This document shows, in pieces, positions 37,677 through 43,193 of a stretch of DNA of 43,193 bases (the first letter of the stretch is position 1; the number at the start of each line of letters is the position of its first letter). Below the pieces are notes generated by a model. It searched no databases and was not told the origin of the DNA. It saw only the letters and a list, made by a program, of their open reading frames with translations. Source of the DNA: Acidiferrobacteraceae bacterium (lineage in GTDB: Bacteria > Pseudomonadota > Gammaproteobacteria > Acidiferrobacterales > Sulfurifustaceae). The position numbers and the translations under genes are program-made. The stretch is from NCBI GenBank assembly GCA_021323795.1, contig JAJPKH010000183.1, positions 1 through 43,193 of the forward strand. Reading direction: 5' to 3'.

Positions 37677-38035
37677 GCGGGCGATTTTTAATATTGTGAA
37701 AGCCGCTGGCGCGGCGCGATTTGTCCCTAACGAATTACCGGAAGCGATCTCAAAATCCACGTATTGGAGATTGCTGCGTCGCGAACTCCGCTCCGTTGCC
37801 ACTGTAAGCGCGAGCTCATTATAGAGTCCTCACGACGGCGCCGCCGTGCGCTTTTGGGGGCAGGCCAATCGCCGATGCCATTGTCGTCGCCAGGCGGGTT
37901 TTTGCGCAGCACCTTGCGTCCGACCATCCCTCGCTTCCGTCCGGGGATACCGCATGGCAGCGGCGCCGCTTTCCTGTCACTCCGGTGCCCCTTGCCGCAT
38001 TTGCCGACCGGGCGGGACCGCGCGTGCCGCGATGG

Positions 38036-39625
38036 TCAAGCCGTCGCTTTCTTTTTGGCGATGGTTCCGGCAAGAGCCGTTGCCTGGCGCGCGGCCATGC
38101 CGTAAATCGGCAACGACGGATTCGCGCCGATGCTGGTCGGAAAGATCGAGCCGTCGATGATCCAAAGATTCGCCAACTGATGGTGTTTGCCCTGACTGTC
38201 GACGACCGAACGCTTCGGATCTTCGCCCATGGCGCAGCCGCCCATCACGTGCGCCGAGAACAGCTGCGCGTGCAGCGTTTTCAGCGGCAGCGCCTCGATC
38301 GCCGTTTTCGCCTCGGACCAGGAGTTGTACATGCCGGCGTCGGTATGCGCGGGCGCGACCTGCTTCGCGCCCGCCGCGAATTGGCACTCCGCCATGGACA
38401 GGTACGCGTGGCGAATGCCTTCCCACAGGTAGCGGTTCATCGGATAGTCGATGAGCGGGCTGCCGTCGTCGGCGAGCGATACCGTGGCGCCTTCGCTTTC
38501 GGGATTAAAACCGTCCCGCAGCAACGCGATCATGGCGTTGAAGTGCGGCAGGGACGCCATGAAGTCCGCGTGCGCCTGACCGAAGCGCGTGAAAATGGTG
38601 CTGGCGAGCACGGGATGTTGCGGCGCGACCTCGAGCTTGTAACCGATCTTGCCGGTGACGCCGTCGCGATAGAGAAATTGATTCGAATACGCCGACTGCG
38701 GCGCGCCGTCGAACGGATTGATCCGTTCCGGCATGATCGCCCCGCTGGCGTTGACGACGTGCAGAAACGTGCGCTTGCCGACACGATGATGCGGATCGGG
38801 CGCCTTCGAACGCAGCAGCAACGCGGGGCTGTTGATGCCGCCGCCGGCCAACACCACGTGCGGCGCTTGCACGCGCAGCTGCACGCCGGTCGGATCGACG
38901 CCGTTGTCGTTCAGCGCCATTGCGTGCACGGCGACGACGCGGTCGCCCTTGATCTCGAGGGTTTGCGCCCGCGCCCGCGTCACGAGCGTCGCACCGCGCT
39001 CGAGCGCGGCCGGCACGGTCGTGACCAGCATCGATTGCTTGGCGTCGACCGGACAACCGGTGCCGCAATAGCCCAAGTTACGGCATGCCTTGACGTTGCG
39101 ATGAATGGTCGCCGCGTGCCAGCCGAGTTTTTGCGCGCCGCGATAAAGCACGTCGTTATTCGGATTCATCGCTTCCCATCGCGCGATGTTCAACCGCTTT
39201 TCCATCATCGCGAACCACGGCGCCATTTCGTCCACGGTGAAGCCTTTGAGGCCGTAAGCTTCCGTCCAATGCGCCAGCGTTTCGGGCGGCGTGCGAAAGC
39301 AGCTCGTCCAGTTCACCGTCGTCGAGCCGCCGACCGCGCGCCCCTGCAAAATGACGATGCCTTTGTCCTTGGTGCGGCGGCCGGCGACGTCGTAATAAAG
39401 GGCGGGATAGGCCTCGCTCTCGAGCATGTGAAAATCTTTGGCGGTGTAATAGCCGCCTTCTTCGAGCAGGATCACCTTTAATCCCGCCTGCGAGAGGATT
39501 TCCGCGGTGACCCCGCCGCCGGCCCCGGTGCCGATGATCGCGATGTCCCCGCTCAACGTCCGATCCTGCGTGAGCGCGGCGGCGTTGATGACGTCCCGTC
39601 TTGCCGTCGTCTTTGACTGTGCCAT
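38036..39625 (-). CDS. GMC family FAD-dependent alcohol oxidoreductase
   Basis: IAIIGTGAGGGVTAEILSQAGLKVILLEEGGYY, QGRAVGGSTTVNWTSCFR, SAHVMGGCAMGEDPKRSVVDSQGKHHQLANLWIIDGSIFPTSIGANPSLPIYGMA. Confidence 0.94.
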   Translation of the reverse strand: MAQSKTTARRDVINAAALTQDRTLSGDIAIIGTGAGGGVTAEILSQAGLKVILLEEGGYYTAKDFHMLESEAYPALYYDVAGRRTKDKGIVILQGRAVGGSTTVNWTSCFRTPPETLAHWTEAYGLKGFTVDEMAPWFAMMEKRLNIARWEAMNPNNDVLYRGAQKLGWHAATIHRNVKACRNLGYCGTGCPVDAKQSMLVTTVPAALERGATLVTRARAQTLEIKGDRVVAVHAMALNDNGVDPTGVQLRVQAPHVVLAGGGINSPALLLRSKAPDPHHRVGKRTFLHVVNASGAIMPERINPFDGAPQSAYSNQFLYRDGVTGKIGYKLEVAPQHPVLASTIFTRFGQAHADFMASLPHFNAMIALLRDGFNPESEGATVSLADDGSPLIDYPMNRYLWEGIRHAYLSMAECQFAAGAKQVAPAHTDAGMYNSWSEAKTAIEALPLKTLHAQLFSAHVMGGCAMGEDPKRSVVDSQGKHHQLANLWIIDGSIFPTSIGANPSLPIYGMAARQATALAGTIAKKKATA

Positions 39626-39633
39626 GGCTCCTC

Positions 39634-40194
39634 CTACGCGAGCGTCGGCGGACCGCCGTAACCGATGCGCGGCCATGATTTCGGATTGCTGTACCAGCTG
39701 CCGATGACGAGATCGTGCAACGCCGTGTAGGCGGAGCGCAGCAGACCGAAGCGGCTGTCGCGCCAGTTGGAGAGGAACTTGGCGACGTCCTCGTCGGACG
39801 CCTGCTCCCACGGCTTCCAGACGCCGGCGAGCAATGCTCGCGTCACTCCCAGGTTCAGCAGATTGAACAGGTCGCGCAGCTCCTTGCGCACGCCGGGCGC
39901 GAGAAACACGCTCGTTTGATCGACACCGGCAATCACTTCGGTAATCGCCGCTTGCTGTGGTTCCGGATTTTGCGGCAGCGCGCCTTGGAGCAGGACCGGC
40001 GCGATGCGCCGCAGAATGACGGCGTCTTCGGCGGTCAGAAACGCATAAGCCCTTTCACGCGGTGTCGCGGCGAAGGCCGGCGCGAGCCAGCGGCCCGCGA
40101 GCAGTAGCGCCGCGCCCGCGACGCCGGCCTTGAGGAGCGCGCGGCGGCCCGGATTGAATGGATGCACTCGGGGGCGTGTCGATTCCGTTTTCAT
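39634..40194 (-). CDS. Gluconate 2-dehydrogenase subunit 3-like small subunit with Tat-like signal
   Basis: PGRRALLKAGVAGAALLLAGRWLAPAFA then LTAEDAVILRRIAPVLLQG; directly upstream of the GMC gene. ORF track over-extends to 40761. Confidence 0.72.
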   Translation of the reverse strand: MKTESTRPRVHPFNPGRRALLKAGVAGAALLLAGRWLAPAFAATPRERAYAFLTAEDAVILRRIAPVLLQGALPQNPEPQQAAITEVIAGVDQTSVFLAPGVRKELRDLFNLLNLGVTRALLAGVWKPWEQASDEDVAKFLSNWRDSRFGLLRSAYTALHDLVIGSWYSNPKSWPRIGYGGPPTLA

Positions 40195-40288
40195 GGTGCG
40201 CCTCGTGGTTGCGCCGTTATCGGTGGACGGATGCGCGCCAGCGTGGAGGCGTCGGCGCGTCGTTGCGGCGCGGAGGTTTTCCAGCATC

Positions 40289-41440
40289 TCATAAAGGGTC
40301 ATGAAGGACATCCTCCGCGTGGTCGGGCCTCGACGTTCCGATCGCGGTGTGGCGGCGATCGAGAAACTTGTCGAAGTGGATGTCGTACGCCGCCACGCCC
40401 GCGGCGGACAGCACGCCGGCGGCGGCATCCACCATCGCGGGCGGGCCGCAAAGGTAGGCGTGAGCGGCGCGCACGTCGAAACCCGAGCGACCGATCCAGT
40501 CCGTGACGAGGCCGCGCGCGCCGCGCCAGTCGCTATCCGGCGGTTCTTCGGAGAGCACCGGCAGAAACTCGAATCGGCCTTTCCATTGTCGTCCGATCTC
40601 GGCGATTTCGTCGAGACAGTAAAGATCCGGCTGGCGGCGGGCGCCGTAGAGGTAAAGCACGTCGCGCCGGCAATTGTCGCGCAGCGCCTGCTCGAGGATC
40701 GCCTTGATCGGCGCCATGCCGCTGCCGCCGGCGACGCACAGGATCGGCGCCGCGGCCGCATACAAATAAAAGGAGCCGTGGGGAGCGTCGAGCTCGAGGC
40801 GCGTTCCGGTCCTGTCGGTCCGGCGCAGCCACTCGCTCATCTCGCCGCCCGGCACCAGACGTACATGGAACAGCAGGACTTGTTGGTCGGACGGCGCGCG
40901 GGCAAATGAATAGGATCGCGCCGGTTCGATGCCGGCGACGCCCAATTGCGCGTACTGTCCGGCGATGTAGGTGAGCGGTTCGTCGAGCTCGACGGACAGC
41001 TCCAGGATGTCATGCGTGAGGAACCGCGTGCCGCGGATCACCGCGGCGACGACCCGCGGCTTCGGCAATACCAGGCCGAGCCGGTCGAGCACGACGTGCA
41101 CGTCGGTCTTGAGCGCGCTCTGGCACGCGAGGATATACCCGGCCTTCAGGTCCGCGGCGCTCAGCACGTAGGCGCTGTCGGTCAGGGCTCTGATTTTGCC
41201 GCTCACCAGCCGGCACTTGCAGGTCGTACAGCTGCCGACGCGGCAATTGTGCGGAAACGGAATGCCGGCGGCCAACGCCGCTTGCAGCAGCGTCCGGCCG
41301 GCGGCGACCGTGATCTCCGCGCCGAGCGGGTCGATGCGTGCGTGCAGCGGTCGGTTACGGTTTTTGCGAAATAGGTCCAGCACCGCGGGACGCCTACGGT
41401 TCGTATATAAAGACAAAGCGGCGGGCAGTCCGCCGCTCAT
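40289..41440 (-). CDS. Fused [2Fe-2S] ferredoxin / FAD-NAD(P)H reductase (XylA-like)
   Basis: Plant-type cluster CRVGSCTTC ... ACQ; FAD motif ARSYSFARAP; NAD motif PILCVAGGSGMAPIKAIL; C-terminal AYLCGPPAMVDAA. Confidence 0.92.
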   Translation of the reverse strand: MSGGLPAALSLYTNRRRPAVLDLFRKNRNRPLHARIDPLGAEITVAAGRTLLQAALAAGIPFPHNCRVGSCTTCKCRLVSGKIRALTDSAYVLSAADLKAGYILACQSALKTDVHVVLDRLGLVLPKPRVVAAVIRGTRFLTHDILELSVELDEPLTYIAGQYAQLGVAGIEPARSYSFARAPSDQQVLLFHVRLVPGGEMSEWLRRTDRTGTRLELDAPHGSFYLYAAAAPILCVAGGSGMAPIKAILEQALRDNCRRDVLYLYGARRQPDLYCLDEIAEIGRQWKGRFEFLPVLSEEPPDSDWRGARGLVTDWIGRSGFDVRAAHAYLCGPPAMVDAAAGVLSAAGVAAYDIHFDKFLDRRHTAIGTSRPDHAEDVLHDPL

Positions 41441-41459
41441 GTGCCGCCCAGCGCCCGCC

Positions 41460-42641
41460 TCAGGCGGCCGTCGGCCGCCAGTCGCTTTCGCCCATGAGCT
41501 CGGGCAGACCGCTGCGCGCGTTCTGCTCGGCCGCGAGCGCGCGTTCGGCCGGCGTCGCGTAGTGCGCGTCCCATTTTTTCAGTTTGGGAATCATCAAGCG
41601 ATGCCAGACCGGCGGAACCATGGTGATGCAGATGGTCGTCAAGTAGCCGTGCTTCAACGTCGGAGCGCCGGGATAGGGCTTGAGTTTCCAGAACGGTGCG
41701 TCGCCTTCCGCATGGTGATGCGAGTGGCGCGTCAAGTTGTACAGCGTGAAAGCGCTCACGCGCTTGTTCGTGTTCCAGGAGTGACGCGGCTCGACGGGAG
41801 CGCCGGCGACGCGCACCAGGCCGTAATGCTCGAAGTAGTTGACGAACTCGAGCAGCGAACGGCCCCATACCGCGGTGCCGAGAAAAATCACCAGGCCGGT
41901 GACGCCGCCGGCCCAGTAAAAAGCGGCGCAGTAAACCAGGCTCATGGCGATGCCGCGCGGCATGCGCGAGCGCCACGACCAGACCGAAATTCCTTTTTTC
42001 GCGAGGCGCTCGCGCTCCAGGCGCCAGGCGTTGATCGATTGTCCGACGGCCGAGCGCACGATGAACGCCCACGCGTTCTCGCCGCGCCGCGCGGTCGCCG
42101 GGTCGCGCGCCGTGCCGAGGTTGTTGTGATGGCCGTAGACGTGCTCGATCGAAAACGAGGTGTCGCAGGTCATCGCGAGCATCCAGCGGCCGACGATTTG
42201 CGCGGCCGGGCTCCAGGTACGATGCGTCAGCTCGTGTCCGATGTTCGTGCCGGCGGTCGCGACCATCAAGCCGGCCGACATCACGCCGCCCCAGAGCGAG
42301 AGCGCGCCGGTTCGTTCGCGCGCCGCGAACATGTCCCAGCCGGTCACGGACTGAATCAGCGCGCCGAGCCCGAGCCAGTCGCCGTTCGTGCCGGTCATCC
42401 ACGCGAGCGGCGCCAGCATGAGCAGCAGCACCGGCAACGAACCGTAGAGCTGCAGGTTCAGCAGCCACGTATGTCGGTATTGGGGTTCGGTGAGATCGTC
42501 GCCCGCGACGGCATCGCCGCCGATGACAAAGATCAAGCTGATGACATAACCGAGCCACATCCACCCGCCGCCGAGAACGAAGCCCGCGGCGGTGATGAGC
42601 ATCAACAGCCACATGAGGAAGTAGCGAACGTACTTGTTCAT
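41460..42641 (-). CDS. AlkB/XylM-type membrane di-iron hydroxylase
   Basis: His boxes HELTHR, EHVYGHHNN, NYFEHYG and RHSHHH; multi-TM N-terminus. Confidence 0.92.
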   Translation of the reverse strand: MNKYVRYFLMWLLMLITAAGFVLGGGWMWLGYVISLIFVIGGDAVAGDDLTEPQYRHTWLLNLQLYGSLPVLLLMLAPLAWMTGTNGDWLGLGALIQSVTGWDMFAARERTGALSLWGGVMSAGLMVATAGTNIGHELTHRTWSPAAQIVGRWMLAMTCDTSFSIEHVYGHHNNLGTARDPATARRGENAWAFIVRSAVGQSINAWRLERERLAKKGISVWSWRSRMPRGIAMSLVYCAAFYWAGGVTGLVIFLGTAVWGRSLLEFVNYFEHYGLVRVAGAPVEPRHSWNTNKRVSAFTLYNLTRHSHHHAEGDAPFWKLKPYPGAPTLKHGYLTTICITMVPPVWHRLMIPKLKKWDAHYATPAERALAAEQNARSGLPELMGESDWRPTAA

Positions 42642-42872
42642 CGTCGTCTCCTGTCTCGGTTTAGGAGGCTTTCTTTTGATTTTGCGAGACCGCGCGCCGG
42701 TCTACTTTTGAGCACGTCTCGATGAATGTCAACGCATCCAGGTGAATTTTGGTCCGCGTTGCGGAACGGGGACGAATCGTCGCGCCAGGCGGGTGGAGTT
42801 CGGACGGATCGGCTGGTGGGCTGCGAAACCAGCGTCCGCGCGCGCTAATCAGGCTATTTTCGAGCTATTCGC

Positions 42873-43046
42873 ATGTCCCTGCCTTTACAAGATATTAAAG
42901 TACTCGACCTGTCACGCGTTGAGATTCCGCACCAATCCGCGGCGCGGCCGCCGTTGTTGGGACAGCACGCCGACGAAGTGCTGCGGCGCTACTTGGGCCT
43001 GAACCGCGCGGCGATCGATGAGTTGCGGCGAAGCGGAGCGATATAA
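42873..43046 (+). pseudogene. Internally deleted class III (CaiB/BaiF) CoA-transferase: N-terminus fused in frame to C-terminus
   Basis: Direct translation MSLPLQDIKVLDLSRV | EIPHQSAARPPLLGQHADEVLRRYLGLNRAAIDELRRSGAI*; both ends typical of the family but about 350 residues missing. Too short for the ORF track. Confidence 0.8.
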
Positions 43047-43058
43047 ACGCTCCGATTG

Positions 43059-43193
43059 TTACATCGAAATCGAGCCCTTGCGAAAGTCCGCCGGCGGATA
43101 GACGGCGTTGATCAGCACCGGTAGGCCCTGCGCCGCGAGTTGTTGTGCGCGCTCGAGGCCGGGAACGATGTCGTCGTCCGCGCGCAGGCACAA
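43059..43193 (-). CDS. C-terminus of a thiamine-pyrophosphate-dependent (acetolactate synthase-like) enzyme, partial
   Basis: Translation ...LCLRADDDIVPGLERAQQLAAQGLPVLINAVYPPADFRKGSISM*; open to the window edge. Confidence 0.7.
   Translation of the reverse strand: MCLRADDDIVPGLERAQQLAAQGLPVLINAVYPPADFRKGSISM

Follow-up and report, generated by a model that had tools for sequence, protein, structure and literature searches.

Does a 57-codon open reading frame that reads as the start and the end of a class III CoA-transferase, joined in frame, encode a small protein, or is it the residue of a longer gene? The question is raised by a mini-ORF at positions 42873–43046 (+) of a contig from an Acidiferrobacteraceae genome. 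The window, the whole 43,193-nt stretch of DNA that was analysed, corresponds to one complete contig (C156) of a MAG that comprises 317 contigs and is 89.8% complete. Checking the ORF and its translation (MSLPLQDIKVLDLSRVEIPHQSAARPPLLGQHADEVLRRYLGLNRAAIDELRRSGAI) returned exactly what the original prediction had given, with start, frame and stop all intact. From the ORF, its translation and profile scores, we consider it probable that the mini-ORF is an in-frame deletion remnant (pseudogene) of a class III (CaiB/BaiF/Frc) CoA-transferase gene in an accessory region, and thus most likely a defunct leftover and no new small protein.

Both ends of the mini-ORF are CoA-transferase termini

We built a reference profile from 51 full-length class III CoA-transferases of related genomes. 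Residues 1–16 (MSLPLQDIKVLDLSRV; 42873–42920, 44% GC) aligned to the true N-terminus of this profile with 29.6 bits, compared with a maximum of 14.2 in 5,000 shuffles. At the true C-terminus, residues 26–57 (32 aa; 42948–43046 with the stop codon) reached 63.3 bits, where 1,000 shuffles gave at most 15.4. The original prediction had described the first ~16 residues as a CaiB/BaiF start and the last ~35 as the end of a CoA-transferase, and would have been withdrawn had the halves not been such termini; the homology search identified both as true termini, making the mini-ORF a CoA-transferase by descent. The tail also matched PDB chains of formyl-CoA transferase and succinate-hydroxymethylglutarate CoA-transferase (SUGCT) with E about 1e-3, and the NCBIfam formyl-CoA transferase models PRK05398/TIGR03253 with E about 5e-4, reaching the last profile position at a score far under the full-length cut-off. 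Pfam returned no match at E up to 10 and the PF02515 gathering score was not reached, because nearly the whole domain is missing.

Scored alongside intact members of the family, the mini-ORF is unexceptional at its N-terminus (29.8, compared with a mean of 29.8, sd 4.9) and at its C-terminus (62.8, compared with 57.3, sd 6.7). At position 33 it has Ala, where 51/51 intact relatives have Ser or Thr. With both ends this close to the norm for intact relatives, either the deletion was recent or the ends are still under constraint, alternatives that a single sequence cannot tell apart.

The catalytic interior is missing

The mini-ORF passes from profile position 20 straight to position 342 or later. 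Compared with its nearest homologue in the order, a protein of 396 aa, it lacks about 320–350 residues. In the CoA-transferase family the N- and C-terminal regions together build the large domain, and the subunits interlock; the catalytic aspartate of the large domain is Asp173 in YfdE (PMC3720670). This aspartate, on which a functional class III enzyme depends, and the small domain both fall in the deleted region. The product of the mini-ORF therefore cannot be a CoA-transferase, and we infer a loss of function. The earlier description of a missing catalytic middle within an unbroken frame ending in an intact stop codon is borne out.

All listed relatives are full-length genes

The search with the 57-residue sequence covered the order (57 genomes), the class (369) and the phylum (399), overlapping samples that amount to some 800 genomes. 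Outside the MAG about 60 homologous matches were listed, all of them within open frames 397 or more residues long. Relatives thus carry intact homologues whose interior is absent from the mini-ORF, as expected of a deletion pseudogene, and the matches listed from the order, class and phylum included no standalone mini-gene, the kind of orthologue by which a conserved microprotein would be recognised. Plasmid sequences gave matches of only 40–63%, those with a listed annotation being ordinary CoA-transferases, and the viral contigs searched gave none.

Elsewhere in the MAG, neither an intact parent gene nor an orphan middle fragment was found. Five other CoA-transferase genes are present, none a close relative of the mini-ORF. 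A class III CoA-transferase ORF of 280 residues (G000, contig C218, 5708–6550; L012) matches profile positions 1–272 only; it probably belongs to a normal short subfamily, as short forms of ~300 aa also occur in three relatives (G020, G031 and G035).

A possible route to the junction

Residues 15–24 (RVEIPHQSAA) resemble, both in the profile and in a gapped BLAST alignment, the RVEVPHPTA segment that the family carries upstream of the conserved tail, so the join may comprise two junctions instead of a single one. Codons 17–25 (EIPHQSAAR; 42921–42947) fit poorly, at −0.2 bits, when the tail is extended over them without a gap; placed on the VEVPHPTA segment, about 20 residues further upstream, they score 10.1 bits. 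The p value of the displaced match varies with the segment chosen: 0.03 for residues 17–25, 0.003 for 15–24 and 0.06 for 17–24. These codons would be a displaced VEVPHPTA if there were two deletions, or a diverged linker if there was only one; the ~10 bits gained by displacement stand against the ~8 bits that an additional free gap should bring, by our own estimate of its cost. Two in-frame deletions, the first falling between in-phase Arg-Val codons with CGCGT microhomology, are therefore suggestive only.

The proposed first junction, placed from the codons of homologues, is CGC GTT (Arg-Val) at 42915–42920 (+). Four intact homologues (L091, L092, L105 and L108) have Arg-Val at both of the corresponding places, with CGCGT at both. 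The ancestral locus would have held a full-length class III CoA-transferase gene of about 400 codons on the + strand, convergent with a TPP enzyme gene on one side and divergent from a desaturase-like gene on the other, and the interior of the CoA-transferase gene would have been lost by deletion. A first, large deletion probably joined the in-phase Arg-Val codons (CGC-GTN), bringing the N-terminal LSRV to the C-terminal RVE(V/I)PHP segment; a second, of about 60 nt, may then have removed the linker ahead of PPLLGxH. A frame stays open after deletion one time in three by chance, and always when in-phase Arg-Val codons are joined; with such codons on both sides, the large deletion would keep the frame automatically. 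An inverted repeat read from the sequence at the possible second junction (GCGGC-GCG-GCCGC, 42939–42951) may be due to chance in GC-rich DNA.

The original prediction had proposed looking for microhomology at the junction. A DNA search of 60 related genomes for close relatives gave only short stretches of about 40 nt at 83–84%, and the best homologue found, at 54% over the tail, is too distant for an alignment at the DNA level. The proposed mechanism is plausible, and we infer it, the junction and the recency of the event.

The probable remnant lies in a region that looks accessory

Downstream, the window ends within the 3′ part of a gene for a TPP-dependent enzyme (43059–43193, −), convergent with the mini-ORF, and its last 107 nt (43087–43193) overlap exactly, end to end, with another contig of the MAG (C71) that carries the rest of the gene. 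Joining the two contigs restores a complete gene for an acetolactate synthase/2-hydroxyacyl-CoA lyase-like protein of over 570 aa; among the NCBIfam matches shown for it, none reaches its own model's cut-off. Upstream and divergent is a gene for a membrane protein of the fatty-acid-desaturase superfamily (41460–42641, −; PF00487), which its histidine motifs suggest is AlkB-like. Two further upstream ORFs, 42726–42848 and 42742–43002, gave nothing in Pfam. The stretch 38000–42641 (−), beside the mini-ORF, holds an oxidoreductase cluster comprising a GMC-like oxidoreductase, a gluconate-dehydrogenase-like small subunit, a ferredoxin/FAD reductase and the desaturase-superfamily membrane hydroxylase.

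A full-length CoA-transferase had been expected beside the TPP enzyme in related genomes. Orthologues of this enzyme had no adjacent CoA-transferase in the flanks examined at nine loci from several phyla, several of the downstream flanks being short. Another family of the order has, in four genomes, a distant TPP paralogue (about 35% identity) followed by a co-directional CoA-transferase, whereas the mini-ORF and the TPP enzyme gene are convergent, a different arrangement. The closest orthologues of the enzyme (L061–L069; 54–60% identity) are found in MAGs labelled Acidobacteria, Chloroflexota, Bacteroidetes, Rhodoferax and Polyangium, a scatter across phyla that suggests horizontal spread. 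Among the relatives searched, the desaturase-like gene has no orthologue in the order; its only homologues, at 35–38%, come from a single genome of the class. The sole other genome of the genus in our set has neither an orthologue of the TPP enzyme nor the desaturase-like gene, and it is devoid of class III CoA-transferases, which gives the region the look of an accessory and probably acquired one. Accessory, acquired regions are a common setting for gene decay.

Alternative explanations

The organism might still possess the full-length gene, with the junction arising from chimeric reads or a mis-join. The fragmentation and incompleteness of the MAG, a contig end only 147 nt past the mini-ORF and the conservation of the two ends, as good as in intact genes, would all fit such an artefact. 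On the other hand, the exact 107-nt overlap between contigs points to a k-mer assembler, and a program of this kind would not be expected to fuse sequences sharing just 5–6 nt, or to collapse 1 kb across such an identity; the contig spans the junction and its break comes at least 167 nt beyond it; and the MAG lacks an orphan middle fragment. The unbroken contig favours real DNA, and we regard an artefact, for which chimeric library molecules could still account, as unlikely. Recombination between two different CoA-transferase genes, giving the head of one and the tail of another, was considered because the first 48 nt of the mini-ORF are 44% GC and the remainder 66%. Intact homologues are also AT-richer at the start (mean −4 points, minimum −22), and a fall of 19 points is seen in the neighbouring desaturase-like gene, so that the drop in the mini-ORF lies at the limit of normal variation; moreover, none of the MAG's other CoA-transferase genes is a close source. 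This origin appears very improbable.

The joined ends could instead yield an expressed small protein that might, for instance, bind the cell's other CoA-transferases. The intact start, frame and stop are compatible with this, as is the contribution of both terminal regions to the large domain (PMC3720670). AlphaFold2, run without an alignment, predicted two fairly confident C-terminal helices (residues 33–41 and 45–54), but the N-terminal part was of low confidence and the expected strand was absent; for the model as a whole, mean pLDDT was 74 and pTM 0.41. The Ala at position 33 departs from an otherwise invariant Ser/Thr, no standalone relative was listed, and no sigma-70-like promoter was found for the mini-ORF, which is weak evidence. 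Comparative support for the retained micro-protein of the original prediction is thus absent, each homologous match listed being part of a full-length ORF, and nothing beyond the open frame speaks for it. We judge retention as a microprotein highly unlikely, and its more specific form, a remnant expressed and kept to pair or interfere with the other class III CoA-transferases, slightly more so. The open frame and well-conserved ends do count against a deletion remnant, in that constraint would also produce both. Among the three options originally offered, the best fit is a precise in-frame deletion; the microprotein is highly unlikely, and an assembly collapse is less likely than the deletion given a contig that spans the junction and the lack of an orphan middle.

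Comparison with known systems

The mini-ORF serves mainly as a caution that a short ORF, clean and seemingly well conserved, may be no more than the two termini of a gene that has lost its interior; should the mini-ORF prove to be expressed and to have a function, it would be an instructive example of how internal deletion in an enzyme with an interlocked dimer can give rise to a microprotein. With class III CoA-transferases (PF02515), of which the nearest in the order is the 396-aa gene of genome G005 (L085, 8969–10159), it shares the N-terminal 16 and C-terminal 32 residues, and its tail is 54% identical to that gene over residues 19–57; unlike that gene, it lacks the ~320–350 interior residues with the catalytic Asp and small domain. 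Internally deleted bacterial pseudogenes are remnants of microhomology-mediated deletion. The mini-ORF resembles them in keeping its ends and losing its interior, in occurring in a single genome with no conserved standalone relatives, and in lying in an accessory region. It differs from typical examples in that its frame happens to survive and decay beyond the deletion is hardly visible.
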